DNA of 64,000 nucleotides from a virus, in the IMG/VR virus record IMGVR_UViG_3300049001_000044, positions 1 to 64,000 of that record; one strand, given 5' to 3'. The position numbers were made by a program, and so were the translations under genes. The notes under the pieces are model-generated. The model did no database searches and was not told where the DNA came from. It was given only the letters and a program-made list of their open reading frames with translations. Below, piece after piece: positions 16,968-57,689 of the stretch; within the stretch, counting starts at the first letter, position 1, and every line of letters starts with the position of its first letter.

Positions 16968-17615
16968 TTACGCTGCTCTTCGTAGCTTGTCAACATTGTG
17001 AAGGATCGCCTTGAGGTTCTCAGATGGATGCGCATCGCCATTCAGCACCACATCCCAATGACACAGTTGGAACCAGTTCTTCTCCACAGTCAACATCGTC
17101 TCCAGCCTACTCAGTGATGCGAACTGCGCTTTGAACGTTGCTGCCTTCAATGCAGCGTAGTCCTCATGGTTTTGGATCACTGCCTTTTCCAAATCTTTTG
17201 CAGCGCGATCCTTGAAGCGTTGCAGACGAAGAGCGGGATCGACGCTCACATACGTCTTCAGATGCAATGCACCCACCTCAATGGCTGGAGCGGCGTAGTG
17301 TTCGATGCCGGACGGCTCAACAATGAGGAAGGCCACACCTTGTGCGAGCTTAGTGTGGAACTCCTGCTTGGTCACGCCATACCTCGCACCGTTAAATTTG
17401 GCCAGCTCAGCGAATTCACCTGCCTCTTCCAGTCGCAGAGACTCTTCCTCGCTGATGAAGAAGTAATCCACACCATCAACTTCACCGGCGCGAGGTGCAC
17501 GGGTGGTAGTACTGATCAGGCAAGGTAGTTTGGCCTCGTCACGAATGAAGTTGAAGAGGTAGGATTTACCGGCGCAGCTCGGCGCGGTCAGAGTTACGAG
17601 GACTTGCTTTTCCAT
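16968..17615 (-). CDS. Guanylate-kinase-like nucleotide kinase
   Basis: 215 residues from the ATG at 17615. The P-loop is APSCAGKS (the usual first glycine is alanine), followed by STTTRAPRAGEVDGVDYFF, the classic nucleotide-binding segment of guanylate kinases. The start lies inside the end of the nucleotidyltransferase gene, so the two are translated together. It may supply a (deoxy)nucleoside diphosphate for DNA synthesis or for making a sugar nucleotide with its neighbours. Confidence 0.85.
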   Translation of the reverse strand: MEKQVLVTLTAPSCAGKSYLFNFIRDEAKLPCLISTTTRAPRAGEVDGVDYFFISEEESLRLEEAGEFAELAKFNGARYGVTKQEFHTKLAQGVAFLIVEPSGIEHYAAPAIEVGALHLKTYVSVDPALRLQRFKDRAAKDLEKAVIQNHEDYAALKAATFKAQFASLSRLETMLTVEKNWFQLCHWDVVLNGDAHPSENLKAILHNVDKLRRAA

Positions 17616-18367
17616 TTGTCGTTGATTTCCTGTTGAATTTCTTTGACCTCTTCCACGGTGTTGAATGAAAGAGTTGGGTAATTGGTCTCGTACACAGTTG
17701 CTGGTCGACGCCTGTTGTAGAGATAGTGGAAGGCAAAGAGTAGAGATAGCTCTCCGCCAGGGGTGATGTAGCGACCATTTTTCCACAGTGCATGGTGCAG
17801 ATCCCAAAGAGCATCACCTAGAGTGTAGCGATGGAACCTAAACACCGACTGATCGTGGAAACCGGTTGGGTGGCTCTCACCATACTTCGAGAAGTCCGCC
17901 GAGATGATGCGAAGCTTGTCGTCAGAAAGTAGCGTGACGTAGGGATTATCCTTCATCACTGCTGGGATAATGCCTACTCCATTCTGAGGTTGAGCAAGCA
18001 GCTCATCGATGATCTCGCCGTGTGGGAAGAAGACGTCGCCCCATGCAATAACGATCTCGTGATGGATATAGTCTCTGGTGGCCATGAGAGCCTGCAGTAC
18101 GGCATGGCCATCACCCAACCCACTTTCAATTGGGACGTTCACGACGTTCTTGCTCAGCTCTGGATCAAGTTGATCGAAGTACGTAGTCCATTGGTCTTGG
18201 ATGTTGACGTTGGTGACGACGAAGACAGTGCTGAATTTGCTACCCACTTGCTTCAACGTCGTCGTGAGGTTTGGTTCGTCAGTGATGGGGACAAGTGCTT
18301 TTGGCACGTTGCCACCCATCCTTGAACCTTTACCTGCTGCAATGATGTAAAGGTCTGCTTTTGACAT
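17594..18367 (-). CDS. Sugar-1-phosphate-type nucleotidyltransferase
   Basis: 257 residues. It begins with IIAAGKGSRMGGNVPKALVPI, the G-x-G-x-R...PK signature of the GlmU/RfbA/GalU class, and has GDGHAV near 90 and a metal-binding AWGDVFF near 110-116. Such enzymes join an NTP to a sugar phosphate. It overlaps the fusion gene upstream by one base and the kinase gene downstream by 22, so the three form one unit. The sugar cannot be read from sequence. Confidence 0.85.
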   Translation of the reverse strand: MSKADLYIIAAGKGSRMGGNVPKALVPITDEPNLTTTLKQVGSKFSTVFVVTNVNIQDQWTTYFDQLDPELSKNVVNVPIESGLGDGHAVLQALMATRDYIHHEIVIAWGDVFFPHGEIIDELLAQPQNGVGIIPAVMKDNPYVTLLSDDKLRIISADFSKYGESHPTGFHDQSVFRFHRYTLGDALWDLHHALWKNGRYITPGGELSLLFAFHYLYNRRRPATVYETNYPTLSFNTVEEVKEIQQEINDKWKSKSS

Positions 18368-20244
18368 TAGATTGAGAAACTAGGATTGGAGAAAGAGAAG
18401 AGAGCCAGAAGCAGTAGAGCGGTGTCTGCAGGATTCTTGACTTCATGGCAGACGATACGAGGGTTCTGTTTTGCCAGCTCTGCGACTGGTGCATCGTTGC
18501 CACTCTTGAGTTCATCACCAATATACACCACTTTGGCAATTGGCGAAACTCGCTTCAGCACTTCCATCACTGCTACATCTTTGCTGACTTCCTTCTTGTT
18601 GATCTCAATCGTGGTGCGACCAGTAGCTTTCACTTCAAAGGCAGAACCGCAAACATGCTTGACGAGGTTGGTGATAGCAAGCCGATATTCCGGATCGATC
18701 GGCTTGATCGACACCATCACATCTCCGCGGTTTTCGAACTTTGCGGCGGGGATGCCAGCAGCGCACAGACTCGTGGTAACGTTCTCGATTGAGTACGGGC
18801 CTTTTGAATCGAAGCGCGCTGCTTCGTCAAGGCATCGGACAAAGTGGAAGCGGCGCTGGTCTTCAGCAGCAGTGCCGAGAGGGTCGTACGAGTATTCATT
18901 AATGCCTCCATCTGCAAATACAGTGATTGGTAAAGTATCTTCGCCCGTCAGCCAGCTATCAACTTGTGGAAGATGAATAGCCTTGATGGTGTTGCCGGTG
19001 CAAATCATGAATTTCTTGTTCTTCAGACCGTGCGCGATCCTCGATACATTGAAGTTCGACGCGTCCTTGAACGTGTTGCCACGACCAACGAGAGTATCGT
19101 CGTAATCGAAAACGTACGCTTCAGCGTCGAGGACGTCCTTGTAGATCGTCTTCAGCACTGCTGCTGCGAGGTTCTCGGGGATGTGCTTGCTGTCCAGCTT
19201 CTCGCCCGTCAGAGGAGTGCGACCCAGACGGAAGTAGTTGACGGACTGCAGCAGCGGTTCCGCTTTCTCATCGATCGTCTTCATCATGTCGTGACCAGTG
19301 TAGTCCACGATTACGTTGACACGCTTCTCTGGGAAGTATTTTGGAACGATAGTTTGAACAATGTCGCTTGCGGTTTGGTTTGGTGCGTCCTTGTCTGGAA
19401 CTCGATTCATCACCATCAGCACCTTCGCCTTCGATGCTTCGATTGCTTCACGGAAACCAACCGATGCGTAGGTAGGAATGAGCGAAGACCATTGAGTACC
19501 GCTCGACATGATCACCACATCAGCTTCTTCGATTGCCTTCTTGCTTTCTTGGTTGAGATGAGGAACTGCTTCTACACCGTTGGCATCGACGAAGAAGACA
19601 TCGATGATTGGATCATCTGGGTTGTTCCAGGAAACGATGTCGCCTTCGTCTGTGATGCGCTTACCACTCTTCGTGATCGCACCCAGGAACAGAGACTTGT
19701 CATCGTTCACCAGCACGTTGTCAGGGATGCCAAGGAAGTCTGCCATCACCGACGCTGCAATACGTAGTGAGTTATTGTACTTTGCAGCAAGCCCAGCGTA
19801 AACGACGTTCGCAATGCTGAAGTCATCGTAGTCGATCAATTGGGAGCCAGGAGAAGCGAAGAAGAAGTTGATGCCGTCTTGGATGATGTCCATGCGACGG
19901 TCGGCTCGAGGAGAGCAAACCTTCCACATCTCATTCATCTTTTCCCAGCAGTATTGACGGGCTTTGTTGGCCTCAACAGTGAAGCGGTGATCGAGGAAGT
20001 TGTTGATGCAACTCTCTGCTCCACCCGCCAGCTTGTAGAGAGTGGTTTGGTTTTTGCGGACGTCGGATGGACCGAGGATTTTTCCACCCAGCGCTTTGCG
20101 AACGGCACCAGTCGAGAGACCATTGTCGTATGCGTTGACGATGACCTTCACGTCCACACCGCGAAATTCCTTGGTGATCAGAGTGTTGAGGCCGGTTTGC
20201 AGTGCGATAGAGCCGGTGCCACCGGCCAGAATAACGATGTTCAT
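18367..20244 (-). CDS. Fusion: CofD/YvcK-like domain plus HAD phosphatase
   Basis: 625 residues. Residues 1-360 start with VILAGGTGSIALQTGL and continue IVNAYDNGLSTGAVRK, the fold and motifs of the CofD/YvcK (UPF0052) family; family members bind sugar nucleotides (YvcK) or transfer phospho-lactate (CofD). From about 385 a HAD domain begins: VFDYDDTL (nucleophile Asp), MICTGNT (motif II), FADGGIN and YIGDELKSGNDA (motif IV), most like the phosphomannomutase / trehalose-phosphatase subclass. A fusion of these two is unusual. It lies between a nucleotidyltransferase and a DNA glycosyltransferase. Confidence 0.85.
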   Translation of the reverse strand: MNIVILAGGTGSIALQTGLNTLITKEFRGVDVKVIVNAYDNGLSTGAVRKALGGKILGPSDVRKNQTTLYKLAGGAESCINNFLDHRFTVEANKARQYCWEKMNEMWKVCSPRADRRMDIIQDGINFFFASPGSQLIDYDDFSIANVVYAGLAAKYNNSLRIAASVMADFLGIPDNVLVNDDKSLFLGAITKSGKRITDEGDIVSWNNPDDPIIDVFFVDANGVEAVPHLNQESKKAIEEADVVIMSSGTQWSSLIPTYASVGFREAIEASKAKVLMVMNRVPDKDAPNQTASDIVQTIVPKYFPEKRVNVIVDYTGHDMMKTIDEKAEPLLQSVNYFRLGRTPLTGEKLDSKHIPENLAAAVLKTIYKDVLDAEAYVFDYDDTLVGRGNTFKDASNFNVSRIAHGLKNKKFMICTGNTIKAIHLPQVDSWLTGEDTLPITVFADGGINEYSYDPLGTAAEDQRRFHFVRCLDEAARFDSKGPYSIENVTTSLCAAGIPAAKFENRGDVMVSIKPIDPEYRLAITNLVKHVCGSAFEVKATGRTTIEINKKEVSKDVAVMEVLKRVSPIAKVVYIGDELKSGNDAPVAELAKQNPRIVCHEVKNPADTALLLLALFSFSNPSFSI

Positions 20245-20312
20245 GTTTGCTCCTTTAAAGTGGTTGGCCCATCAGCTTAGCTTCCGGGCCCGTGCACTTA
20301 TTTACGCCAAGT

Positions 20313-20927
20313 TCAATCTGCTTTTTTCTGATCGAAGTCGAATTCAGTCGCCACGAAGTTGAAGTAGGCACACAGCTCGCAGCTTACTGGATCAGCAAGG
20401 TTCTTACCCGCGTTGACGCGAACTTGGGCGCCTTGCAGAGTGTTGAGGACTGCTGCGGCAACTGGGTTCTCACTGATGAGATCGGTGATTTGACCAACAC
20501 GGTGAGGGAAGTACGCGTCGAATTCCAGCTCGTGCTTCGATCCAAACGCAGCGTAATCCAGCTTGGCGTGCCCAAAGGACAGCAGTTTGGTACCTTGCAG
20601 ATAGGTAGTGCGAAGGATGGTGTCCGCTCCATCCAAGATGTCGATCGCAACGATGAACGACTCCATCTCCTGCAGTTTAAGCAGACCTTTGAAGGCCACG
20701 TTGGTGACATCATCTTGGAAGTCGATGATAGTGCTATTCAACATGCCCATGTCCACCCTACGTTGTTCAAGTCCATCAACGCGGATGGCCTGTGCGGACA
20801 GTTGATCGCTCACGTCCAGCTTCTGCTTCTCCTCGTTGAGGAAGCGAACACGAAAACGATTCTTCAGATTGGGAGCACGAATGCCAACACCACCTATTCC
20901 TGGGATTGGATTACCGATTGACGCCAT
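20313..20927 (-). CDS. Unknown protein, perhaps tail-tube-like virion protein
   Basis: 204 residues from the ATG at 20927, overlapping the glycosyltransferase stop. N-terminus is Gly/Pro-rich (ASIGNPIPGIGGVGIRAP), then RFRVRFLNEE...LSAQAIRVDGL, and later LLSFGHAKLDY and ELEFDAYFP. The alternation of strands is reminiscent of T4 gp19-type tail-tube folds, but this is a weak impression. Its place inside a DNA-modification operon argues for another role. Confidence 0.7.
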   Translation of the reverse strand: MASIGNPIPGIGGVGIRAPNLKNRFRVRFLNEEKQKLDVSDQLSAQAIRVDGLEQRRVDMGMLNSTIIDFQDDVTNVAFKGLLKLQEMESFIVAIDILDGADTILRTTYLQGTKLLSFGHAKLDYAAFGSKHELEFDAYFPHRVGQITDLISENPVAAAVLNTLQGAQVRVNAGKNLADPVSCELCAYFNFVATEFDFDQKKAD

Positions 20928-22050
20928 AGTTGACAGTGTCCTTGATGAGGTTAACAAATTGCGAGCAGTAAGTGTTGGCATCGAAGTTAATGGCCTTCAG
21001 CTGCGCAGAGAGAATTTCGTTGCGTAGGTTTGGATCAGTCTTCAAGAGCATGATCTTCTCGCTGACTTCTTTCCGCTCGCCCACGTACAGGAAGTCAGCG
21101 AGTTCTTTGTCCACGCCATACACGCGGCGTAGCTGGTCCAGATCCTTATCGATGAAGGTGACGACGTTCGACCAAATCGACTCATACGCTCGTTGGGCCA
21201 TGTCGTTGATTTGCTCGTAGTAGGGGTCACCAATCACGATGTGAGCCATTGCCTTGTTCATCTTTGGCAGCATCTCATCGTACTTGATGGGGCCTGTGAA
21301 GGTTGGAGTACGAGTCACGCCAAGCAAATGCTTCTCTTCGAAGTCTTCCAACTTGATCTTGCCGAACATCTCCACCGAGATTTCTTCTGGATGGTTGAAG
21401 TAGAACTTCACCATCTTCTTCGAGCGCTTGCCACCACGCATGGTTCCACCATACGAGAGATCGACTTCAGGGGTCGGATTGATGGGCAGCTGTTCATTAA
21501 GGCAGGGGAACTGCTCGAACGGGAAGTGGATCGCAGTCGATGGGGTGACTTCGTTCTTGCTCAGTTTCTCCAGCACCTTGTTCACGTCGTAGGGCTGGCT
21601 GAGATAGATGATGTCGTTACGGGTAATGTTCAAATCTTTCTCTGACCAATTACCAGCCCATGGCTTCCTACTTACTGACGGCCACACTTGCTTGAGAGTC
21701 AGGGATGGATCACAGTAGACGTAGAAGACTGGTCCTTTGAACTCGTTGATGATGACATAGTTCAGGAGCTGCTCAGGGTCTTCTGCTCCACCGAAGAAGT
21801 TGACGTTGCCGTTCAGCACAATAAGGGCCTGAGCACGAAGACCATCTGCGAGAGTAGCCGGATCGCTAAGATCGAACCACTCGTATTCAGGGAGTAGGTT
21901 ATCCTTCTTCAGGATTTTGGTGTAGATTTGGACTTTCGCTCCACCGCCCTGCAGCATTTTGATGATGCTTCGCGCTTCACCATTGCCGCCTGACGTATCG
22001 TTCGCATTGAACGAGATGCGCGAGCCCAGTTTAATTACTGCTACCTGCAT
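20911..22050 (-). CDS. DNA glycosyltransferase related to T4 beta-glucosyltransferase
   Basis: 379 residues. Segments run parallel to T4 beta-gt along the whole length: VAVIKLGSRISF at the start, VNFFGG near 85, then VWPSVSRKPWA near 130, LSYGGTMRGG(K/R)RSKKMV near 205, PTFTGPI near 250, HIVIGDPYY near 275 and FLYVG/RKEV near 330. T4 beta-gt moves glucose from UDP-glucose to 5-hydroxymethylcytosine in DNA. With the dCMP hydroxymethylase at 27723 this predicts glycosylated DNA. Donor sugar unknown; the neighbouring cassette hints that it may not be plain glucose. Confidence 0.88.
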   Translation of the reverse strand: MQVAVIKLGSRISFNANDTSGGNGEARSIIKMLQGGGAKVQIYTKILKKDNLLPEYEWFDLSDPATLADGLRAQALIVLNGNVNFFGGAEDPEQLLNYVIINEFKGPVFYVYCDPSLTLKQVWPSVSRKPWAGNWSEKDLNITRNDIIYLSQPYDVNKVLEKLSKNEVTPSTAIHFPFEQFPCLNEQLPINPTPEVDLSYGGTMRGGKRSKKMVKFYFNHPEEISVEMFGKIKLEDFEEKHLLGVTRTPTFTGPIKYDEMLPKMNKAMAHIVIGDPYYEQINDMAQRAYESIWSNVVTFIDKDLDQLRRVYGVDKELADFLYVGERKEVSEKIMLLKTDPNLRNEILSAQLKAINFDANTYCSQFVNLIKDTVNYGVNR

Positions 22051-22258
22051 AGTTGTTCCTTATGATGAGGGTGAGCATCAGGATGATCGTCACCAAGTGA
22101 AGGAATGGAACACTTAGCAAGATGATCAAACTGATCATGATTGGGTTTTTGAAGTTGTACCCGAATTTTGGGTGATGAGGTCCGCGTAAGTCCTCCTTAA
22201 CGGCCAACATTGTCAGGCCAAGAAAGATTGTACCACAAATGAAGAGATAAGCAACCAT
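22031..22258 (-). CDS. Small two-helix membrane protein
   Basis: 75 residues with hydrophobic helices at about 3-19 and 40-66 and a short polar loop (KEDLRGPHHPKFGYN). Overlaps the glycosyltransferase start by 20 bases. Function unknown. Confidence 0.75.
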   Translation of the reverse strand: MVAYLFICGTIFLGLTMLAVKEDLRGPHHPKFGYNFKNPIMISLIILLSVPFLHLVTIILMLTLIIRNNYAGSSN

Positions 22259-22288: not shown

Positions 22289-22675
22289 ATGAAACTTTCC
22301 GAACTACTTGAATCAGACGACGATAACCTGCGCAAATTCCACAAGAGCCTAGGTGACGAGATCAGAGCAGGGGCCGCAGCCAGAAAGGCGACGCACGATG
22401 CGATGTTCAAAGACCACAAATGGAGATACGACGAAGGCGACATGATCATGTCGAACAAGACGGGTAAGGTCTACAAAATCACAGCACGGATTTCGCAATA
22501 CTATACGCCTAGGGACGAGAAGTTTAAACCCACCGGTCCCAAGCAGCTTGTTCCTGCCTACCGCTACAAAGCTGGTGAAGAGGAAGGCACGCTGCTTGAG
22601 CCAAAAATTACCGATGGGATGTTCACCCTTATGACTAAGGGTAAGAACGTCAAGACATCTCCTGACGAGGATTAA
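22289..22675 (+). CDS. Late protein with capsid-targeting leader, function unknown
   Basis: 128 residues. Begins MKLSELLES; L-L-E fits the L-x-E cleavage site of T4-type prohead proteases. Behind a late promoter and CTGGAG. The lone plus-strand gene in this stretch, convergent with 22672 and overlapping it by four bases at the stop codons. Basic, Tyr-containing body with no recognised fold. Likely packaged in the head. Confidence 0.8.
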   Translation: MKLSELLESDDDNLRKFHKSLGDEIRAGAAARKATHDAMFKDHKWRYDEGDMIMSNKTGKVYKITARISQYYTPRDEKFKPTGPKQLVPAYRYKAGEEEGTLLEPKITDGMFTLMTKGKNVKTSPDED

Positions 22676-23247
22676 TCCGCTGTTGCCTCCGCGAGGATGT
22701 CTTCTTTCGAACGGAAGCTGCCGTCCTCAGCAGTGACGCAGATGATCTTCTTGTCGGGGAATGCGGAGCGGTTGAATGCATCGATGAAGAGCAGTTGTTC
22801 TTGAGCTCGCTTCTCAACACTGCCCAGGCTCAGGCCATCATCGACGAAGTGCTTGCTCTTGGAGAAATCTTCGACTAGGAGAATCAGGCGGGTGTCGATG
22901 TCTTCTTCCACCCCATAGATTTCTTCAAGACCGAAGACATAGCTGCCGTCATAGCCGCGGTACATGGGAGCGTACACGCATTCACCAAGGTGAGCGCGAT
23001 CAAAGATTAATGGGGTCTCCATCCCAGCACCAAGCAGTTCGAACATGGCGACAAAGCCATCATACTGGTACAGGAATTCTGGTGACTGCTCCAGGCCGTC
23101 TTCTTCCTTGATTTGCACATAGGAATCCAAACGCTTTGGCTTGGAGTAGTGGATGACGGTGTGGAAACCTTCCTTGTGTTGGATGCCCTCGATGAGGGAG
23201 GACTTGCCAAGGCGATCAAGTCCTTCGATGATGTAGTTAAATGGCAT
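22672..23247 (-). CDS. Thymidylate-kinase-like deoxynucleotide kinase
   Basis: 191 residues. P-loop IEGLDRLGKSSL near the start, and LIFDRAHLGECVY near 80-92 where TMP kinases have their DR(Y/H) segment. Likely phosphorylates dTMP or hydroxymethyl-dCMP, feeding DNA synthesis. A possible promoter (TATAAT at 23254-23259) lies just upstream. Confidence 0.82.
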   Translation of the reverse strand: MPFNYIIEGLDRLGKSSLIEGIQHKEGFHTVIHYSKPKRLDSYVQIKEEDGLEQSPEFLYQYDGFVAMFELLGAGMETPLIFDRAHLGECVYAPMYRGYDGSYVFGLEEIYGVEEDIDTRLILLVEDFSKSKHFVDDGLSLGSVEKRAQEQLLFIDAFNRSAFPDKKIICVTAEDGSFRSKEDILAEATAD

Positions 23248-24047: not shown

Positions 24048-24392
24048 TTAAAATGGAATGTCATTGTCGATCAAATCAGAGATGTCCACTCCATTATCCA
24101 CACATCTCTTTTCTAACTTCTCCACCCTACTCTCCAAACTTTCAATCACGTTGTGAAGGTGGTGCCGGTAGTTCTTGCCATCGTCTGCCGGATTGAAGAC
24201 CTTCTCCCAGAGATTGGCGCGATCATAGAAGATCTTTGCGAACTTCGAATCATTAGTGATGAGGTCAGCGGCGTGGCGAAGATCATAGGCGCATCTCCTG
24301 CCCGCCTTTACTAACAGTTCGACCTGTTCTCTCTGCGCCGCCTCAGGTGAGTAGTCCTCCGGCTTAAAAACTCTGTTGACGTACCAGTTCAT
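24048..24392 (-). CDS. Unknown protein with C-terminal coiled coil
   Basis: 114 residues; heptad-like IESLESRVEKLEKR near 83-97. ATGA overlap with the HD-domain gene upstream. Confidence 0.75.
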   Translation of the reverse strand: MNWYVNRVFKPEDYSPEAAQREQVELLVKAGRRCAYDLRHAADLITNDSKFAKIFYDRANLWEKVFNPADDGKNYRHHLHNVIESLESRVEKLEKRCVDNGVDISDLIDNDIPF

Positions 24393-24820
24393 TTCACCAG
24401 CAGTTGCAGTTGGTTGCTATACTTCTTCACACGATAGGCGGAGTCGGCCATAATCGATTCGGTCAAGTTACAGAGGGTGTCATGGATCTTCACCTCCTTT
24501 GAGTAGTGATACTCCTTGACACGGTAGATGTAGGCGTCGTAGGCTTCGCCTTCCACCTTTGTCAGAGCCACCACAAACTTCGTGATGTCCTTACCCACTG
24601 CCGCCTTCAGTTCTTCTTCGGTCAGATCGGTGTCTTCCAAGATGTCATGAAGGATTGCGACAGCGAGGAGGGCTCGGTTGCCATCACCCCACTTTCGACG
24701 AATGGAATCAACCACTGCGCTGAGGTGGTACATGTAGGGATGGTCGCCATACATCTGGCCGGCGTGCCACTTCTCTGCTAGCGCATAGGCGATGTCAAAT
24801 ACATCACGAGGTTTGGACAT
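24389..24820 (-). CDS. HD-domain hydrolase of the SpoT/MESH1 type
   Basis: 143 residues from MSKPRDVF. YMYHLSAVV, ILHDILEDTDLTEEEL and VVALTKVEG reproduce the H...HD...ED signature of the small alarmone hydrolase (MESH1) and SpoT hydrolase domains at their usual spacing. No synthetase domain is present. The enzyme could break down (p)ppGpp, or another nucleotide, during infection. It lies just after the helicase gene in one operon. Confidence 0.8.
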   Translation of the reverse strand: MSKPRDVFDIAYALAEKWHAGQMYGDHPYMYHLSAVVDSIRRKWGDGNRALLAVAILHDILEDTDLTEEELKAAVGKDITKFVVALTKVEGEAYDAYIYRVKEYHYSKEVKIHDTLCNLTESIMADSAYRVKKYSNQLQLLVK

Positions 24821-24836
24821 GGTATGACTCCTTAGG

Positions 24837-26567
24837 TTAGAGGAACTTGGTGAAGCGCAGATTGAACTCGTCTTTCCAAATGTTGGTGTTGGAGTTGAAG
24901 ATGCGTTGAGCATTCAAATCCAGCACGTAGGTGGTGGCGAAGTCTTCAGCCGATCGGACACTTCGCCCAGCGCCCTGAACCATCTTCATACAGGTGATGG
25001 TGTTGTACAGGTCTGGGTGGTGATCGAGGATGAACTTCATTCGCTTATCGCCAAGCGATGGGAACGGAGCCTTCACCAGAATTTGGAAGCGGGACAGATC
25101 ACCTGGTAAGTCGACACCTTCAAACATGGCCGGTGAAATCAGAACAGCAGGGCCGCCAGTGTAGGCCTTGAACGCAGTCAGAACGTGCTCCAGCTTCTCA
25201 CCTTGGCGATGGTCGAAGAGACGCATCTTACCAGCCTTGACGAGTGGTTCCAGCTCCTGTACGATTTCTTCCGTCAATTTGAAGGAAGGAGTCAAGATGA
25301 TGCCACGCTCACCGTCTTGGATGTGGTGCTTGACGATCTTGGCCGCATTCTTGCGCAGCTTGGCGACGGTTGCTGGGTCCTTCAATGAGGTGAAGTTCAA
25401 AGAGAGCGGATCGAAGAAGACCACTTCCTTGTTCTCTTTCGGGAAGGTAGGATCCAACTTGATGAACTTGGTCCGCTTAGGATCCAGATTCATAGTCTTG
25501 GTGATGAAGGCTTCGGAGATGGTTGCGGACATGAACAGATTGTGGGCTGCGCATTCCAACGCTTCCATCATAGTACCCACGAAGACAGGCTTCACAGTCA
25601 CCGCCTTGTCCTCTTCCTTGTACTCAAAGACGTGAGCATAGCCGTACTTCTCGAAGTCATCGATCTTGCAACCCAAGCCTTCGTACTTCTTCGTGAAGCG
25701 GGACAGCTTGGTGAACTGACCATGATTGCCACTGCGCAGAGCTTTCTCCTGCATCACAGAGCCGCGGGTCTTGGCGTAGGTGTAGACCGAATGCAACGCT
25801 TTCAGGTACGCCTGGTAGTTGGTGTCGTTGATCTTGCCCTTCACACCAACATCAGTCGACAGCTGCTTCAACGTCTTGATAATGGACATGTCGGTGATTT
25901 GGACCATGTCAGCAATCTCTTGCGCCATCTTCTGGATTCCCTTTTGGGAGAAGTGGATGGCGTTGTGCTCGCTAAACAGATCATTGACGAGGTGTGCTTC
26001 GTCCCACACGATCAGATCACGGTCTTCAAACTTGCCCGTGTACATGCGATCGATGAAGTAGTAGGAGTAGTTCGTCGCGAGGTGACGAGCCGCGTTGCGC
26101 TTATCCTTGATGTGCTTGTACTCGCACTTGGCGCACTCGCTATCCAGAATGGATTGGAACTCGGATGCGTGCTGGACCATGGTGTACCAGGCACAGGCAT
26201 CGGCAGTCTCGGTCTGTTCTTCAGTGCTAAGAGCGGAACACTCGTAGTTGTTCGCACCCTTGATCATGATGAAGTCGTTCTTCAACCCACCGAAAGTTCC
26301 CTCATACTGCTTGGCGAGGACGTTCGTTGCAGTGAGGGAGATGCTGGACTTGGACTGCTCCAGATTGTTCTTCAGGGCAGATAGGGTGTCTGCTGTGACC
26401 GCACCGATGATCGACTTACCAGTACCAGTCGATGCGTTCAAGATGACATTCACCATCTTTTCGTCGATGAAAGCAACCAACACTTCGTTCACTGCTTCGA
26501 CTTGGCCAGCGCGAGGAGTGAATTTCAATCGCTCGAATGCCGCCAAAATTTGCTTTTCGTATTTCAT
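24837..26567 (-). CDS. DinG/XPD-type superfamily 2 helicase
   Basis: 576 residues from the ATG at 26567 (ATGA overlap with 26564). Walker A STGTGKS near 46-52, VWDEAHL (DEAH box) near 190, MSATIS, and GAGRSVRS (motif VI) near the end. Four cysteines between about 100 and 150 (ECSAL, DACAW, ECAKCEY) could hold an iron-sulphur cluster as in XPD and DinG. Unwinds DNA or R-loops; role in replication or recombination is likely. Confidence 0.88.
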   Translation of the reverse strand: MKYEKQILAAFERLKFTPRAGQVEAVNEVLVAFIDEKMVNVILNASTGTGKSIIGAVTADTLSALKNNLEQSKSSISLTATNVLAKQYEGTFGGLKNDFIMIKGANNYECSALSTEEQTETADACAWYTMVQHASEFQSILDSECAKCEYKHIKDKRNAARHLATNYSYYFIDRMYTGKFEDRDLIVWDEAHLVNDLFSEHNAIHFSQKGIQKMAQEIADMVQITDMSIIKTLKQLSTDVGVKGKINDTNYQAYLKALHSVYTYAKTRGSVMQEKALRSGNHGQFTKLSRFTKKYEGLGCKIDDFEKYGYAHVFEYKEEDKAVTVKPVFVGTMMEALECAAHNLFMSATISEAFITKTMNLDPKRTKFIKLDPTFPKENKEVVFFDPLSLNFTSLKDPATVAKLRKNAAKIVKHHIQDGERGIILTPSFKLTEEIVQELEPLVKAGKMRLFDHRQGEKLEHVLTAFKAYTGGPAVLISPAMFEGVDLPGDLSRFQILVKAPFPSLGDKRMKFILDHHPDLYNTITCMKMVQGAGRSVRSAEDFATTYVLDLNAQRIFNSNTNIWKDEFNLRFTKFL

Positions 26568-27603: not shown

Positions 27604-27726
27604 TTATGCCTTTGATTTGGGAATGTAGTAGATGACGAAGCCATGAGGATGAACGCATTTGCGAAAGTCGTCCAGGTTCGCTGGCTCTTTTCGTAGTTCT
27701 TCTGCAGGAGGAATCTTGATGTTCAC
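27604..27726 (-). CDS. Tiny protein of 40 residues (GTG start)
   Basis: GTG at 27726 overlaps the stop of the dCMP hydroxymethylase as GTGA; the stop is two bases before the next gene's ATG. Product: MNIKIPPAEELRKEP..., ending HPHGFVIYYIPKSKA. It fills a gap of otherwise empty coding strand exactly. Unrecognised. Confidence 0.68.
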   Translation of the reverse strand: MNIKIPPAEELRKEPANLDDFRKCVHPHGFVIYYIPKSKA

Positions 27727-28475
27727 TTTGCGTGGCCCACGGGATCAACGAGGTGGTAGTGACGAGCGTAAACGTGGAGAGAACCGACTTGCCAGATCAG
27801 ATCACCAACCTCGACGTTCAGTTCTGCTGCGAGCTTCTCTTGCACGTGGCGTTGCCATGCACGATCGTTCTTGTAGCCGAAGACTGCGTCATTCGAGCGC
27901 ATGTTCACGATCGATATCAGCTTACCACCACGAATGAGGTACTGAACTGTGTTGGTGCACATGAAGTCAGAGCGGCCGTTCAGGTTGTAGTCCAGCCACA
28001 TCGAAGGACGAGTGTAGATGGCGATGGCACGGCGTGACTCTGGATTTTTCTTCAGCTCTTGAACGACTTGTTCATACTGCGAAGGGGCCAGAGACAGGAG
28101 ACGAGTGGAAGCGCTGGTCTCACGTGCTTCATACTCATTCATCATGAAGCCGTTCTCATGCGAGTAGAGGGTCCAGCCGTAGTTGGAGTTGATGAAGCCA
28201 TCTTTGTCAGCGACGGCTTTCCAAATCTGTGGAGCACCACCAGGGATGTCATTGACGTTCAGCGACATGGAGTTGTACCACGCCTCTTCACGTGCGACAT
28301 AGTCCCAGTTCACTTCACCGAAGATCGCTTCCTCATCAGCGAGAAACGTTGCACCGACAATTTCGATGGTGGTGTTGCCAGTCAGGGAAGTCATGCTACC
28401 TTCTCTGTTGACAGATGTGAACTGACCTGCTGCGAGCAGGTCTTCAAATTGCTTGCGGATATCTTTGGTTTGCAT
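27723..28475 (-). CDS. dCMP hydroxymethylase (T4 gp42 type)
   Basis: 250 residues. IEIVGATFLADE, INSNYGWTLYS, SRRAIAIYTRPSMWLDYN, DFMCTNTVQYLIR, VVNMRSND-like NMRSNDAVFGYKND and SLHVYARHYHLVD match T4 gp42 almost segment by segment, and differ from thymidylate synthase at the places where gp42 does. Catalytic Cys is in FMCTNT (residue 173). It makes 5-hydroxymethyl-dCMP from dCMP and methylene-tetrahydrofolate, so the phage should carry modified cytosine. DHFR (38422) would recycle folate only if thymidylate synthase is also present. Confidence 0.95.
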   Translation of the reverse strand: MQTKDIRKQFEDLLAAGQFTSVNREGSMTSLTGNTTIEIVGATFLADEEAIFGEVNWDYVAREEAWYNSMSLNVNDIPGGAPQIWKAVADKDGFINSNYGWTLYSHENGFMMNEYEARETSASTRLLSLAPSQYEQVVQELKKNPESRRAIAIYTRPSMWLDYNLNGRSDFMCTNTVQYLIRGGKLISIVNMRSNDAVFGYKNDRAWQRHVQEKLAAELNVEVGDLIWQVGSLHVYARHYHLVDPVGHAK

Positions 28476-52437: not shown

Positions 52438-52446
52438 GTGTCTTGG

Positions 52447-52519
52447 TGCTGTAGAAGGGAATCGAACCCATGACCTCTTCCTTACCAAGAAAGTGCTCTA
52501 CCGACTGAGCTACTACAGC
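52447..52519 (-). tRNA. tRNA-Thr (GGT)
   Basis: Acceptor GCTGTAG/CTACAGC, D-stem GCTC/GAGC, anticodon loop TTGGTAA, T-loop TTCGATT, discriminator A. It stands alone, 5.5 kb from the main array, between two coding genes. A second Thr(GGT) lies at 61830. Confidence 0.93.
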
Positions 52520-52525
52520 ATGAGA

Positions 52526-52906
52526 TTATTTATGGGCTTCCATCCGTTCCCGGATATCAGCAAACGCTACCTCGAATTCATGCTCCGCTTTGAAGTATTC
52601 ATCTGCATAGTCCGCATATCCCACGGCGATATTGCTCGTACTACTTAATACACCAAATCGGTTCTTCACGATGCGAGCGAGTTGGCAGAGACGGTCGAGG
52701 TCCTCCACCGTCACCTTTGTCAGGACACGCGGTGGTTGCTCATTGCTCAAGAAGGCGTGCTCGTATTTCCAAGTAGCACGCGGCCACGCCTTCGCCTGGT
52801 TAGGATGCAGGATCTTGGGACCGAACTCCACGTGCCCATCCTCGATGTGGTTGTGCTCGAAGACGCCCTTGTCGTTCTTGCGAGTCCAAATGGTAATGGG
52901 CGTCAT
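52526..52906 (-). CDS. Unknown protein
   Basis: 126 residues, charged, Trp-containing start (MTPITIWTRKNDKGVFEHNH). ATGA overlap with the Nudix gene. Its last codons (HK-stop) by chance read CATAAATA. Unrecognised. Confidence 0.75.
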   Translation of the reverse strand: MTPITIWTRKNDKGVFEHNHIEDGHVEFGPKILHPNQAKAWPRATWKYEHAFLSNEQPPRVLTKVTVEDLDRLCQLARIVKNRFGVLSSTSNIAVGYADYADEYFKAEHEFEVAFADIRERMEAHK

Positions 52907-53637
52907 TCCTCCACCTCTTGAAAATCGGAGAGGTCCACATCTACTGACTTCTCTTTGTAGCCCAGCACCTTCGCGATTTGGATGAAGGCCTGCTTCACCA
53001 GCTCTTTGTGCGCCTCACGGCCACCATTCATGAACTGCTCAGCAGTCATCCAAACCACAGCACCGGTTTCGAAGTGCGGTTGGTTGAAGTCGAACTCATC
53101 CTTCACCTCGACAGCATAAAGAGCGAAGGTGTATTCCTTCTCGTCTTGAATCGTACCCTTCAGCACGTTGTAGACGGATTGTTCCTGGTATGTGGTGTTG
53201 TCCAGCTTCAGACCCAGCTCTTCTTCACCCTCACGAATTGCTGCGTGCTTTGAGGATTTGTCGGTAGGATCAACATACCCCTTGCTGATTTGCGGAAGAG
53301 GACCACCATATTTCGGGTCAGACGAAATCATGAACATCATACGCAGCTCCCTGCCATCGTGACGGTAAGGGATGATGCCTGCCTTCTCGACAGGTGGATG
53401 CCAAGTCCAGCAGCCACAGTACTTGCAACCCACTGGGTCCCAGTTCTCGTATCCATCGAAGTGACGGTAGTATGCGTGACCACAGTCGCATTTCGCATCG
53501 TCAGGGAAGTCAGGATTCATGCGCAGCTCGGTGCGCTCTACCATCACCTTCGTGCGAAGATATGGACCCGTGGTGTCAGCATCCGGCTCGGACGACAACA
53601 CCTTGTCTTGGTTTATGCAGTTGAAAATTCTTGCCAT
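52903..53637 (-). CDS. Nudix hydrolase with zinc ribbon
   Basis: 244 residues from MARIF. CDCGHAYYRHFDGY followed by CKYCGCWTWH is a zinc ribbon at about 50-80. The Nudix domain has MFMISSDPKYGGPLPQISKG and AAIREGEEELGL; the box carries one extra residue, but the REx-EExG core is intact. MISSD-YGGP is shared with the Nudix at 56482, so the two are paralogues. Confidence 0.87.
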   Translation of the reverse strand: MARIFNCINQDKVLSSEPDADTTGPYLRTKVMVERTELRMNPDFPDDAKCDCGHAYYRHFDGYENWDPVGCKYCGCWTWHPPVEKAGIIPYRHDGRELRMMFMISSDPKYGGPLPQISKGYVDPTDKSSKHAAIREGEEELGLKLDNTTYQEQSVYNVLKGTIQDEKEYTFALYAVEVKDEFDFNQPHFETGAVVWMTAEQFMNGGREAHKELVKQAFIQIAKVLGYKEKSVDVDLSDFQEVEE

Positions 53638-53658
53638 CGTTCCTCCTTTGTACTTGTT

Positions 53659-53687
53659 ATTGTACAACGATGGCGATCGTGTTGAAA
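53659..53687 (-). promoter_or_regulatory. Middle-type promoter
   Basis: TTTCAA, 17 bases, TACAAT on the minus strand, 22 bases before the Nudix ATG; the -35 weaker than in the other sites. Confidence 0.5.
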
Positions 53688-54608
53688 CTAAGTCCTGGTC
53701 TCCAACACTTTGGGATGTAAGCTGATTACGTTATCGACGTATTTCACTTGTCTTGTAAATCGATATCGATGCAAGATGTCGAATACCCTCTTGCTGGGGT
53801 ATTTGCCAAACTCAAGTCTGTCTCTTTGCGTTACGAGCTCAGACTTCTCATCGTATATTTCCTTCACTCGTTCGAAGCCGGTCATCTTGAACTTTTGTGG
53901 GATGACGTCGAACCCCGCTCTAGAGTACAAGTCGCATTTATTGGCGTACCCAGTCGAGGAACATCGTGCCGTCCTGAAGAATCTACGGAATGAACCGACT
54001 AACTCAGGATCATGTATGAAGAAGAATGGGATGATACTTCTTTGGGTATTTGTCGCGTAGCGAAGTAAACCCAAAATCGTGTAATTGACATTTGGACCTT
54101 CTGAGTAACAGTTACCGCTAAAGATGACGGTACCCTCAGTTACCAGCTCACTCATCTTCATGTGCGTGCAGATTTGCGGACTAGTACAGCTATGCGTTAA
54201 GACGTAGGACTCAAGCTCCCGTTCTATGAAGTCAATGATCTTGAAGTCTTTGAACTCAACCGCCAATCCATTCATGTCTACGAAAGTCTTCAGCGTTTCC
54301 AAGTCTTCAACATTGAGTACCTCACCGTCATCAGTCACATACTGCACCGACATTAGCTTGAATGGAACACCTGACTTCATCCAAGCGCAAACCATCGCTT
54401 GACTATCGACCCCTCCTGATACCATTAGAGTGAATGGTGCGGGATACTTATCAGCGATCCTTCTTACAGAATTAACGGCAGCCGTCAGTGGTGGTAGATC
54501 ATTCTCATCTACCACACTAAAGTCCATCACGTATGGGATAGATCGACTGGGCGTCTGAGATAACTTAAGGCCCCATCCCTTTTTCACCCAATCCAAAATC
54601 ACCCCCAT
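53688..54608 (-). CDS. PP-loop ATP pyrophosphatase-like protein
   Basis: 306 residues. FTLMVSGGVDSQAMVCAWM near 60-78 is the N-type PP-loop of asparagine synthetase, GMP synthetase and QueC/TilS enzymes. THSCTSPQICTHMKMSEL and GNCYSEGPN contain cysteines that could bind metal. No glutaminase part. Four bases after the subtilase stop. It may activate a substrate by adenylation for tRNA, DNA or peptide modification. Confidence 0.82.
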   Translation of the reverse strand: MGVILDWVKKGWGLKLSQTPSRSIPYVMDFSVVDENDLPPLTAAVNSVRRIADKYPAPFTLMVSGGVDSQAMVCAWMKSGVPFKLMSVQYVTDDGEVLNVEDLETLKTFVDMNGLAVEFKDFKIIDFIERELESYVLTHSCTSPQICTHMKMSELVTEGTVIFSGNCYSEGPNVNYTILGLLRYATNTQRSIIPFFFIHDPELVGSFRRFFRTARCSSTGYANKCDLYSRAGFDVIPQKFKMTGFERVKEIYDEKSELVTQRDRLEFGKYPSKRVFDILHRYRFTRQVKYVDNVISLHPKVLETRT

Positions 54609-54612
54609 ATCG

Positions 54613-56208
54613 TTACATGCACGCAACACCGGTGCAATAGCAGTCCATCTGTTTTGCGCTACCACAGTTGTGGCAAGCGGTACAGCCGTTCGTTGCGCAT
54701 GTTGTGACATTACAAGTACCGCCGGTCGCGTAAGGCGTGATCTTCAACTGTGGATCAACAGTTGGGTCGCTCTCGTCTAGCGTATCAGCAACAACCCACA
54801 TTCTAACTTGGTAGGGGACTTCTCCGCCTTCACGAAGGGAGAGAGTGAAATTGATGTCGAAGTATTTCCAAGTCGAACCATCTGTGATGTCGATCTTACC
54901 AAGTAGCAGGCCGTTGTCAAATGTCATGCCTTCAGGCAAGCCGTCGCAAGTTGCACTTGACACCGTTAGTCTGTTGAAGAGGTCGAAGCCCCACTCTTGC
55001 CCACTCTTGACCTTTAGCTCAGCCAGGGCGCCAACACCGACATCATATGGCTTGGTCTTGAATGTAGTGACTAGGTTAACGGACGAGGAGTATTTTGGAT
55101 CATCCAGATGAATCAAATTTCTGCGGTAGAAGCCCACTGTGCCAACGAAGGTTTGCACAAACGTATCTTCACTGATCGATTTGATAGCAATTTGCCCGTC
55201 GCTAGTAACAGCAGTGGCGAGATTATACGCAGTTGCTGCAGTATGGATCGCAGCTGCGATAGATGTTCCGGATACCAATCCATATCCACCACCAACCAGC
55301 GCGACGTAGATGTCTTCACCTGGTGCCCAGCCATCTAGCTGTCCACCATTCGTAGCGCCAGTAGTCAAGCTGGTCGCTGACGAGTAATTGGAGAAATCTG
55401 ATGGCATGAAATCCTGGCTATAAGAGCCGATCGTGGTCACCATATCCATGCCAGCAGGGGTCACATCGCCGATCTCAACTCCACTGTTACCTGCAGCGGC
55501 GACAGCGTAGACGCCGGCTTCGATAAGCTTGGCGATTTTGGATTCGATGAATGTGTTCTTAGCAATACCCCAGCTCATGTTCACGACAGAGGCGGTCTTT
55601 CCATTTGCCACAAAGTCAGAGATGATGGCATCGAATGCGTCAAGCAAATCACTCTGCAGAGTCTCGACGGAATTGTCGAACACCTTAACCACCTTGACAC
55701 TTGCAGACGTCATGCCGCATGTCTTACCAGCGATGACGCTTGCGAGAGATGTGCCGTGACCAGTGGTGTCAGTGAAGTCACTCGTGAACGAGTGCATGGT
55801 TTGAATCTTCGCATCCGCAAATTCAGGGTGTGTCAAGTCAATACCACTGTCCATGATATAGATGGTGACATTATTACCCAAGATAGGGTAGGTCTCTACA
55901 TCGGTGGAAAAGTCTGGGGTCATGATACTAGCGACCTTCCACCAATCCTTCGAGTCGGTATTTGAGAACTGTCCGTATTGGAAATCTGTACCTAGATCGA
56001 AACTTACACCCATCAGATTGATTGGGTTCGATTCGTTCTTAATAGCTGTCTCCACGATGTCAGTGACAGGCGGCTCAATGTCGGTGTCTACCAGATAAAC
56101 TTCTTCATAGTTCTGGTACTGCTTCACCACATTGCAGTTGTTTGCCTGGAGGTAAGCTTGGATATCTGCAAGGGTAGCGTCTTGCTTAAAGTCGACTAGG
56201 AATTTCAT
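54613..56208 (-). CDS. Subtilisin-like serine protease (S8) with Cys-rich tail
   Basis: 531 residues from MKFLVDF. An inhibitor-like N-terminal prodomain is followed by the catalytic triad: YIMDSGIDLTHPE (Asp), DTTGHGTSLASVIAG (His), VSGTSIAAAI (Ser), with AAAGNSG as oxyanion-hole Asn. After a beta domain, the last 35 residues hold ten cysteines and one histidine (TCATNGCTACHNCG, DCYCTGVACM), unlike usual subtilases. No secretion signal. It is in a late unit with a zinc-ribbon and a PP-loop protein, so it may be a virion or head-maturation protease or act on host proteins at the end of infection. Confidence 0.9.
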   Translation of the reverse strand: MKFLVDFKQDATLADIQAYLQANNCNVVKQYQNYEEVYLVDTDIEPPVTDIVETAIKNESNPINLMGVSFDLGTDFQYGQFSNTDSKDWWKVASIMTPDFSTDVETYPILGNNVTIYIMDSGIDLTHPEFADAKIQTMHSFTSDFTDTTGHGTSLASVIAGKTCGMTSASVKVVKVFDNSVETLQSDLLDAFDAIISDFVANGKTASVVNMSWGIAKNTFIESKIAKLIEAGVYAVAAAGNSGVEIGDVTPAGMDMVTTIGSYSQDFMPSDFSNYSSATSLTTGATNGGQLDGWAPGEDIYVALVGGGYGLVSGTSIAAAIHTAATAYNLATAVTSDGQIAIKSISEDTFVQTFVGTVGFYRRNLIHLDDPKYSSSVNLVTTFKTKPYDVGVGALAELKVKSGQEWGFDLFNRLTVSSATCDGLPEGMTFDNGLLLGKIDITDGSTWKYFDINFTLSLREGGEVPYQVRMWVVADTLDESDPTVDPQLKITPYATGGTCNVTTCATNGCTACHNCGSAKQMDCYCTGVACM

Positions 56209-56225
56209 GGTGTCCTTATTTTGGT

Positions 56226-56453
56226 TTACCACTTGTTAAGTGGGCACTCAACGTTCAATAGCTTTGTCTTTGCCGTCATAAAGCACCCGCACTCCTTGCA
56301 AGTCTTCGTGAGCTTGATAAGTGAGGGGCACTCGACACAAATCTCGATGCGCTTCTTCGCGACATCTGTTGGTGCAAGCTGGCCTTGGACGCGTTCAGCA
56401 ACTTCTTCAGCAACTTCCTGCACTCTAGCCTTTAGTTTGTCTGCGAATGACAT
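56226..56453 (-). CDS. Small zinc-ribbon protein
   Basis: 75 residues; N-terminal helix, then CVECPSLIKLTKTCKECGCF and CPLNKW. This cysteine layout is familiar from short proteins in many T4-like phages; function unknown. First gene of the late unit. Confidence 0.82.
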   Translation of the reverse strand: MSFADKLKARVQEVAEEVAERVQGQLAPTDVAKKRIEICVECPSLIKLTKTCKECGCFMTAKTKLLNVECPLNKW

Positions 56454-56478
56454 GTTAAGCCTTCTATGGTTGATGGGA

Positions 56479-56486
56479 TATTTATT
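56479..56486 (-). promoter_or_regulatory. T4-type late promoter
   Basis: AATAAATA on the minus strand, 26 bases before the ATG at 56453. Confidence 0.7.
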
Positions 56487-56949
56487 GGGCTAGCTTTCGA
56501 ATCTTCTCCGCACACGCGGACACGATGTGACGTTGGGAACGTCGACCCTTCTTGTTGAATTCCGCTTCAGTGAACCAAACAACTTCCTTGGTCTCATAGT
56601 GCGGTTTGCCGAAGTCGCGAACGTCATCGACCCGGCAGATCATGACAGTAAAAGGATACTTGGCGTCTAGCCCTTCCAACTCGCCCGTCCATCCCGTGGT
56701 TAGGGTACCATCCACGATGTTCGAACGACGAAGTCCAAGTTCTTCTTCGGCTTCCCTAACACCTGCAACTTCCTCAGTCTCTCCTGGGTCAATGCCACCC
56801 TTAGCAATCATGGGGTCTGGACCACCATAGGCCGCGTCGGACGAGATCATGAAAGCCATGCGAGGTTCGCCATTGGCTTCCAATACGTAGGGAATGCATC
56901 CTGCTTTCCCACGCTTCTTGGGTGCTTCGAAAAGTTGATGTAGTTTCAT
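56482..56949 (-). CDS. Nudix hydrolase with capsid-targeting leader
   Basis: 155 residues from the ATG at 56949. Starts MKLHQLFEAPKKR (L-F-E leader). MAFMISSDAAYGGP, AKGGIDPGETEEVAGV and REAEEELGL give a complete Nudix box. Own late promoter. If the leader is cut as in T4 internal proteins, this enzyme is carried in the head and enters the host with the DNA, where it could act on a nucleotide signal such as an alarmone or ADP-ribose. Confidence 0.87.
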   Translation of the reverse strand: MKLHQLFEAPKKRGKAGCIPYVLEANGEPRMAFMISSDAAYGGPDPMIAKGGIDPGETEEVAGVREAEEELGLRRSNIVDGTLTTGWTGELEGLDAKYPFTVMICRVDDVRDFGKPHYETKEVVWFTEAEFNKKGRRSQRHIVSACAEKIRKLAQ

Positions 56950-56978
56950 GTTGGGATGAGTGTAAGTGATAGTGAAGC

Positions 56979-56986
56979 TATTTATC
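56979..56986 (-). promoter_or_regulatory. T4-type late promoter
   Basis: GATAAATA on the minus strand, 30 bases before the Nudix start. Confidence 0.7.
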
Positions 56987-57003
56987 CAGCGCATAGCTCA
57001 GGA

Positions 57004-57082
57004 CTTACCAGTGAGGCCCAGAGACCTCCACCACGTCACGATGTAGAAGCCCATAGACAACGAAGGGACCTCTCTGGGCCCC
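57004..57082. repeat. Repeat element R6
   Basis: Left arm CTTACCAGTGAGGCCCAGAG and ACCTCC (57004-57029), right arm GGGACCTCTCTGGGCCCC (57065-57082). The most diverged copy. Downstream of the terminator of 57146. Confidence 0.75.
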
Positions 57083-57104
57083 TTGGAAAATGCGAACGCA
57101 AAAA

Positions 57105-57125
57105 GGCCCCTCCTCGAGAGGGGCC
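57105..57125 (-). terminator. Terminator after the gene at 57146
   Basis: GGCCCCTC, five bases, GAGGGGCC with TTTTTG following on the minus strand. Confidence 0.85.
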
Positions 57126-57145
57126 GGCTGGAGAAGGCCGCCGGA

Positions 57146-57436
57146 TTAGTGGACGGTCGGGGCTTCCCAGTGGGTGTTGCGGAACTTCGTGGCCGCCTTC
57201 TTCATCGACTTCAGGGCCGTCTCGATGTCCGTTTTCATGGTGACACCCTCAACGCCGATTTCTTTTGCGAAGGCAACCAGCTTGGCCTTGTTCGCTTCCT
57301 TCGAGGCGATCGGGCCGGCGTCGATGACGGACTGAACGTAGGTGTAACCGAAGCGGAAACCGCGGGGACCCGGTTGGACGTGGTTCGCGGCGGCGTTTTT
57401 CTTGGTGTTCTTCGATGCGGTAGCTGCGTTTGCCAT
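57146..57436 (-). CDS. RGFRFG-family small protein (paralogue 4)
   Basis: 96 residues: a short basic start (ATASKNTKKNAAANH) and the shared domain QPGPRGFRFGYTYVQSVIDA, closest to the protein at 1467. It is almost only the domain, which helps to define its limits. Own early promoter and terminator. Confidence 0.88.
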   Translation of the reverse strand: MANAATASKNTKKNAAANHVQPGPRGFRFGYTYVQSVIDAGPIASKEANKAKLVAFAKEIGVEGVTMKTDIETALKSMKKAATKFRNTHWEAPTVH

Positions 57437-57504
57437 GGTCGTTCTCCTTTGAAAATTTCAGTTTACTTTCGGGTTTTACTTCGTTTGTTTCTGTTGATGA
57501 GGCT

Positions 57505-57532
57505 ATAGTACCACAACCTGGGTGGATGTACA
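57505..57532 (-). promoter_or_regulatory. Early promoter
   Basis: TGTACA, 16 bases, TACTAT, AGCCTCATC (one base off consensus) on the minus strand, 69 bases before the gene at 57436. Confidence 0.83.
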
Positions 57533-57647
57533 CAGTAATTTGTGTAAAAGTTGTAACAGGTAGTTGTTACCGCTAGGAAACATACGAACCGAAACGACCT
57601 CTATTATAGAAGGGACCTCCTCTATATAAGGAGCGCAGAAACGACAA

Positions 57648-57667: not shown

Positions 57668-57689
57668 TCATTGATATGAATCACAAAAC

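Follow-up and report, generated by a model that had tools for sequence, protein, structure and literature searches.

A GlmR-phosphomannomutase-type fusion and a nucleotidyltransferase beside a T4-like DNA glycosyltransferase in huge phages: a candidate exchangeable supply of sugar for hydroxymethylcytosine

INTRODUCTION

Why should a phage that encodes a DNA glycosyltransferase carry genes of sugar-nucleotide metabolism directly beside it? The question is raised by the IMG/VR virus record IMGVR_UViG_3300049001_000044 (343,229 bases), of which we analyzed the first 64 kb (64,000 nucleotides, termed the window in what follows). Its minus strand encodes a homologue of T4 beta-glucosyltransferase (BGT), a fusion of a CofD-superfamily domain to a HAD domain, a putative sugar-1-phosphate nucleotidyltransferase (NtpT) and a guanylate-kinase-like enzyme. 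An initial annotation, made from the sequence alone, proposed that the phage may make its own activated sugar and place it on hydroxymethylcytosine (hmC), giving a DNA modification other than plain glucose. We find it likely that the fusion and NtpT (together termed the pair) supply an activated sugar to BGT for hmC, whatever that sugar may be. That the sugar is an undescribed one, neither glucose nor arabinose, is a narrower claim that we hold tentatively.

The sugars on phage DNA determine against which of these genomes restriction, CRISPR and type IV systems are effective. Two phages offer precedents for a self-made sugar nucleotide. The DNA of RB69 contains arabinosyl-hmC, and its ORF055c and ORF53_52c are candidate genes for the synthesis of uridine diphosphate (UDP)-arabinose (PMC6024577). 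Shewanella phage Thanatos has pentose-modified cytosine, and its UDP-xylose pyrophosphorylase TH1_063 makes UDP-xylose in vitro (PMC12838424).

RESULTS

Linkage of the pair to BGT

All four genes reported by the initial annotation exist as intact minus-strand genes (Table 1), and the overlaps it described are found at two junctions, of 1 base between NtpT and the fusion and of 19 bases between the guanylate kinase and NtpT. Its gene list did overlook two genes, a dCMP hydroxymethylase 6 kb away and a kinase near BGT. An open reading frame (ORF) of 222 aa intervenes between BGT and the fusion.

IMG/VR was scanned with the fusion, NtpT and BGT as queries, so that some contigs were gathered by the BGT query. 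The scan yielded 31 viral contigs with the fusion. On 30 of these BGT and NtpT lie close by, and the 31st starts inside the fusion gene; counting only loci found by the fusion query, BGT is present at 16 of 17, the exception again being that truncated contig. This is the neighborhood search that the initial annotation had called for. One finding it named as fatal to its proposal was the same gene set in phages that have no glycosyltransferase; we looked for such cases on these contigs, and none appeared apart from the one cut off at its end. The gap between fusion and BGT is −3 to 1516 bases on 29 contigs and 5.9 kb on one. Across the 30 contigs where they co-occur, identity to the window BGT ranges from 85% down to 37%, and recurrence of the three genes over this range argues that their grouping is not due to chance. 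The cluster moreover survives changes in gene order, with the pair upstream of BGT in L090 and the arrangement extending over 6 kb in L093. Neighbors that recur across divergent loci are BGT, the fusion, NtpT, the dCMP hydroxymethylase and the kinase. No GenBank phage shows DNA-level similarity to the locus; at the protein level LR756500 (462 kb) is the only GenBank phage with relatives of both fusion and NtpT, and it also has BGT there.

The guanylate kinase, which the initial annotation had placed in the sugar cassette, has a different distribution. BGT phages without the pair still have it, whereas beside divergent pair-bearing BGTs it mostly went undetected, so we rejected it as a cassette member; it is probably a neighbor serving general nucleotide metabolism.

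Provision of hmC

The hmC acceptor would come from a dCMP hydroxymethylase that the window encodes, a homologue of T4 gp42. Its match to gp42 has E=7e-68, versus 5e-11 for the best thymidylate synthase, and it carries an Asp at the T4 D179 site (RSNDAVFGYKND), the residue that sets enzymes acting on dCMP apart from those acting on dUMP. The alternative that it is a thymidylate synthase was rejected on these grounds and because the genome encodes elsewhere a true thymidylate synthase whose residue at the pyrimidine-specificity site is Asn, which argues that the window enzyme is not there to make dTMP. A dCMP hydroxymethylase occurs in most of the compared loci, with the D179-type Asp in every case. 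Of 16 loci compared, 12 have the thymidylate-kinase-like gene in the neighborhood of BGT, and we regard its product as a candidate hydroxymethyl-dCMP (hm-dCMP) kinase. The same genome encodes a gp43-like polymerase; a phmmer search of the genome found no homologues of T4 gp56, a-gt or gp1.

Two positions that distinguish pair-associated BGTs

The window BGT is 28–32% identical to T4-like BGTs. Homology to the T4 enzyme spans its length, and E22, D100, R191, R195, D258, R269 and E272 are kept, as they are in nearly all BGTs aligned. We take D100 of T4 BGT to be its catalytic base, and its arginines and E272 to be UDP contacts.

Our alignment comprised 23 BGTs with the pair and 15 without it, six of the latter from huge phages and nine from T4-like or Enterococcus phages. 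T4 position 18 is Gly and position 162 is Phe in all 23 pair-bearing BGTs, that of the window included, and in none of the 15 others; T4 BGT itself has V18 and I162. These are the only two positions that separate the sets fully, being invariant with the pair and never the same residue without it. The site of T4 E163 varies among pair-bearing BGTs (E, Y, Q or D). Gly18 and Phe162 would fit an altered donor or acceptor pocket, and the differences from V18 and I162 suggest that the donor of the window BGT may be other than UDP-glucose.

A class I S-adenosylmethionine-dependent methyltransferase gene lies near BGT in four pair-bearing lineages (L073:7171-8127, L079:1498-2322, L081:4786-5598 and L082:11101-11907); three of the four have it in the interval from BGT to the fusion. 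Its product might methylate the sugar.

The fusion protein

Profiles of the fusion domains were made from phage and bacterial homologues. They assign residues ∼1–340 to a YvcK/GlmR-like domain and residues ∼372–617 to a HAD domain of the alpha-phosphoglucomutase/phosphomannomutase (PMM) type. The initial annotation had called the protein a CofD/YvcK-HAD fusion; the YvcK and HAD parts of that name stand, whereas the CofD part does not, since the N-terminal profile matches the YvcK structure 2ppv at 1.4e-25 and the true CofD structure 3c3d at E=0.14, a score by which we ruled out CofD proper (2-phospho-L-lactate transferase). The HAD profile matches the alpha-phosphoglucomutase 4bnd at 1e-11 and PMM2 at about 7e-10. 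In agreement, an AlphaFold2 model of the fusion (pLDDT 88.7) finds YvcK and 4bnd by Foldseek, which also lists FbiA structures, a weak fold similarity.

Within the HAD domain, D380, D382, K555, G576-D577-E578 and G582-N583-D584 are invariant in 15 phage sequences. R506 and R521 are likewise invariant in the phage set and by manual alignment appear to be the counterparts of the PMM cap arginines. The domain therefore has the features of HAD subfamily IIB, namely DxD, the motif-III Lys, GD(x)nND, the cap arginines and profile likeness to solved mutases. It is a putative sugar-phosphate mutase, although as far as the sequence goes it may also be a phosphatase.

The N-terminal domain keeps the nucleotide-binding core, with N280 (aligned with Asn217 of the B. 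halodurans protein) invariant in the phage fusions. At the sites of GlmR D40, D41 and N198, predicted uridyltransferase residues which were mutated together in an active-site test (PMC10128056), the fusion keeps the first Asp, has Asn at the second, as does 2ppv, and apparently has Thr at the third. YvcK binds UDP-glucose and UDP-N-acetylglucosamine (UDP-GlcNAc) (PMC5482804), and Listeria GlmR has GlcNAc-1-phosphate uridyltransferase activity, making UDP-GlcNAc from GlcNAc-1-phosphate and UTP (PMC10128056). These two activities suggest two plausible roles for the N-terminal domain.

The nucleotidyltransferase NtpT

The AlphaFold2 model of NtpT (pLDDT 88.6) has GlmU, UDP-glucose pyrophosphorylase and RmlA as its top Foldseek matches (E from 4e-17 to about 1e-14). 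Its active-site residues R16, K23, D111 and N236 are invariant across the homologues aligned, and NtpT has the fold, G-rich loop, Arg, Lys and two metal-binding positions of the GlmU/RmlA type. The C-terminal acetyltransferase domain of GlmU is absent from its 257 aa. A mutase of the alpha-phosphoglucomutase/PMM type together with an enzyme of GlmU fold would most naturally handle a hexose or a hexosamine.

NtpT is cut to about 190 aa in the clade of L087, L091 and L092. Far from the cassette the genome encodes another nucleotidyltransferase of sugar type, with 243 aa and a PF00483 domain (hmmscan 1.8e-10), at genome positions 321617-322348 on the minus strand (L016:17617-18348).

Alternation with an RB69-type cassette

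The pair is not nearby at six BGT loci (L072, L074, L076, L077, L078 and L080). Five of these six records were searched whole (G001–G005) and have no fusion. All five carry instead a SIS isomerase gene, its product 46–53% identical to RB69 ORF055c, and adjoining it a gene for an NTP-transferase/APH fusion (NTP-APH) of 538–575 aa that resembles RB69 ORF53_52c. Among 16 pair-bearing records the NTP-APH gene was found in none (partial matches in two of them, near E=1e-4, were trivial), and only one gave a weak SIS match; the cassette of both genes was not found in the window's own genome. The RB69-type set is thus present in five records without the fusion, and the full set in no pair-bearing record tested, which indicates that the two cassettes alternate. 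Since phages without the pair carry another sugar cassette, the sugar coat of the DNA looks exchangeable. In the BGT tree the pair-less clade is nested inside the pair-bearing group.

In the records of L072, L074, L076, L077 and L080 a transferase of BGT type may thus be the one that makes arabinosyl-hmC.

Bacterial relatives of the pair

Scanning 84,980 species gave 11 bacterial loci with a full-length fusion, in metagenome-assembled genomes of Firmicutes and Bacteroidales. An NtpT homologue lies directly upstream of the fusion in 10 of the 11 by tblastn, and the eleventh, L057, has a similar ORF there. Annotated neighbors of the bacterial pair include glycosyltransferases, polysaccharide flippase-type proteins, epimerases and cytidylyltransferases. 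Relatives of RB69 ORF53_52c lie a few kb from the pair at L051:8735-10829 and L054:13798-15366, and L051 also has a relative of ORF055c. For these polysaccharide loci we found no described function of a GlmR-PMM fusion paired with NtpT. In the fusion tree phage and bacterial sequences fall on opposite sides of one strongly supported branch, which makes the exchange between them an old one.

In the bacterial fusions (L048–L058) HAD motif IV reads GNE, versus GDE in the phages, and the GND that follows is often GNE or a variant. With these changes the activity of the HAD domain may not be the same in bacteria as in phages.

DISCUSSION

A model for sugar supply

Gene identities, folds, key residues, linkage and alternation were computed, and from them we infer reactions, nucleotide base, sugar and transfer to DNA as follows. 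The dCMP hydroxymethylase would make hm-dCMP, which the candidate kinase would phosphorylate and which would be incorporated as hmC. The HAD domain would interconvert sugar-6-phosphate and sugar-1-phosphate, like the alpha-phosphoglucomutase and PMM enzymes, and NtpT would join the sugar-1-phosphate to a nucleoside triphosphate, for which UTP is the likeliest choice. The nucleotide-sugar would be bound by the YvcK/GlmR-like domain, acting either as a sensor or as a second uridyltransferase, and the BGT homologue would move the sugar onto hmC in the DNA. The supply cassette would be exchangeable, related phages using the one of RB69 type.

The supply role is likely because of the dCMP hydroxymethylase, the near-universal linkage, the fitting folds and residues, and the presence of another cassette in pair-less relatives. 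On the same evidence the central proposal of the initial annotation, that the phage provides its own activated sugar to a DNA glycosyltransferase acting on hmC, is well supported. Its further proposal, of a sugar other than glucose, is pointed to by the two BGT positions and by the alternation of cassettes, and falls short of proof. We lean toward a non-glucose hexose, or a derivative of a hexose, in preference to glucose, the donor then probably being a UDP-hexose. Our most specific reading, for which we see nearly even chances, is that widespread uncultured huge phages put an undescribed activated sugar, neither glucose nor arabinose, on hmC, and switch the sugar by swapping cassettes shared with bacterial polysaccharide loci, while retaining one glycosyltransferase family whose donor pocket adapts.

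Several points weigh against the supply model. Of GlmR D40, D41 and N198 only the first looks conserved in the fusion. The uracil-contacting Gln76 of GlmU corresponds by manual alignment to Ile80 of NtpT, so that use of UTP by NtpT is not assured. The six pair-less BGTs form one clade, hence the alternation possibly reflects one event, and an approximately unbiased test does not reject a single clade of pair-bearing BGTs (p=0.25). Absences are provisional, since most viral records are fragments and since the whole-genome profile search missed the PF00483 gene of this very genome that hmmscan finds. Finally, BGT positions 18 and 162 were chosen from the data once the groups were known.

Alternative readings

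The strongest competitor is the glucose form of the supply model itself, and its probability is contained in that of the model. Here host UDP-glucose would be too scarce and the cassette would supply more of it, the HAD domain acting as an alpha-phosphoglucomutase, NtpT as a UTP:glucose-1-phosphate uridylyltransferase and BGT making glucosyl-hmC. The top HAD match, 4bnd, is indeed an atypical alpha-phosphoglucomutase, UDP-glucose pyrophosphorylases are among the best fold matches of NtpT, YvcK binds UDP-glucose (PMC5482804), and BGT retains the residues that in T4 BGT serve catalysis and contact UDP. Yet at positions 18 and 162 all pair-bearing BGTs depart from the T4-like ones, the homologues in bacteria belong to variable polysaccharide loci, often a source of unusual sugars, and the cassette that alternates with the pair is tied to a non-glucose sugar. 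On balance we consider plain UDP-glucose unlikely, while giving it more weight than either alternative below.

A second and more radical alternative takes its chemistry from cofactor F420 synthesis, where CofD-superfamily enzymes with an NTP-transferase partner transfer a phospho-group. NtpT would make a nucleoside diphosphate-activated phospho-compound, and the CofD-superfamily domain would put the phospho-group on a hydroxyl of hmC or of a DNA-bound sugar, releasing nucleoside monophosphate and leaving a phosphodiester substituent. Besides the F420 precedent, the FbiA structures among the fold matches and the company of NtpT and the CofD domain on all fusion contigs speak for it. The N-terminal profile, however, favors YvcK/GlmR (1e-25) over CofD (0.14), and the HAD domain looks mutase-like and would be superfluous for such chemistry, which makes this reading improbable.

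Least probable of all, and by our estimate very much so, is that the pair acts on cell-surface glycans, in envelope remodeling or superinfection exclusion, and adjoins BGT incidentally: its bacterial homologues do lie in surface-polysaccharide-type loci, but it stays near BGT on 30 of 31 contigs despite differing gene orders, no surface glycosyltransferase is conserved among the common neighbors, and the cassette that takes its place in related phages has its link to DNA glycosylation.

Comparison with known systems

The supply model resembles what has been proposed for RB69, a phage-encoded supply of sugar-nucleotide feeding a DNA glycosyltransferase on hmC (PMC6024577), and the RB69 genes likewise have relatives in bacterial polysaccharide loci. 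No gene is shared, however: RB69 combines SIS and NTP-APH with an a-gt-like transferase, whereas here a GlmR-PMM fusion and NtpT accompany a BGT-type transferase, and within the huge-phage BGT family the RB69-type set and the pair were not found together. Thanatos also has a phage nucleotidyltransferase that makes a UDP-sugar and is tied to cytosine modification, but by its published description TH1_060 combines glycosyltransferase and phosphotransferase domains and there is no CofD/PMM fusion (PMC12838424). For neither phage does the description include a GlmR-PMM fusion or a transferase of BGT type.

T4 has homologous b-gt and gp42 genes, whose key residues are kept here; it uses host UDP-glucose without a supply cassette, and differs at BGT positions 18 and 162. 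YvcK/GlmR of B. subtilis and L. monocytogenes shares the N-terminal fold and the GGTG, D40 and N280 positions, but GlmR is a single-domain protein of UDP-GlcNAc metabolism, whereas here the domain is fused to a PMM-type HAD domain.

In the open-access literature searched, no paper linked CofD to glycosyltransferases of phages or phosphomannomutase to the modification of phage DNA, and a jumbo-phage review makes no mention of CofD or YvcK. The statement of the initial annotation that no pathway with this gene set had been described holds for the set itself; as a principle, phage supply of sugar-nucleotides is anticipated by RB69 and Thanatos with other genes. We class the locus as a probable variant of phage self-supplied hmC glycosylation outside the RB69 and T4 systems.

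If the sugar supply is a swappable cassette, DNA modifications would extend beyond glucose and arabinose, would be changeable in one step and would be predictable from gene neighborhoods. The GlmR-PMM fusion with NtpT also becomes testable, as identifying a product bound to phage DNA may be less difficult than identifying a rare sugar of a capsule.

OTHER FEATURES OF THE LOCUS

Table 1. Genes of the candidate sugar-supply locus and of hmC provision (window coordinates unless marked)
Feature	Length (aa)	Coordinates	Strand	Matches
BGT, T4 beta-glucosyltransferase homologue	379	20911-22050	-	PHROG 7922 E=2e-50; Pfam T4-Gluco-transf 6.5e-17
CofD-superfamily (YvcK/GlmR-like)-HAD fusion	625	18367-20244	-	Pfam CofD 6e-25, Hydrolase_3 5e-6
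NtpT, putative sugar-1-phosphate nucleotidyltransferase	257	17594-18367	-	NTP_transf_3 3e-12; closest solved sequences GlmU
Guanylate-kinase-like enzyme	214	16968-17612	-	Pfam Guanylate_kin 2e-16; PHROG 1815 3.5e-28
ORF without assigned function, between BGT and fusion	222	20313-20981	-	No Pfam match
dCMP hydroxymethylase (T4 gp42 homologue)	250	27723-28475	-	PDB 1b49 E=7e-68
Thymidylate-kinase-like kinase, candidate hm-dCMP kinase	191	22672-23247	-	PHROG 761 1.6e-4
True thymidylate synthase		genome 333518-334417 (L017:9518-10417)	-	PF00303 1.4e-99

The ORF between BGT and the fusion is not conserved, a similar gene having been found only at L030/L039. A protein with a RelA/SpoT-type domain (TIGR00691 1.8e-14), possibly directed at (p)ppGpp, is encoded at window positions 24389-24913 on the minus strand. 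The window also has 26 tRNA genes at 52444-62320, mostly in a dense minus-strand array at 58–62 kb.

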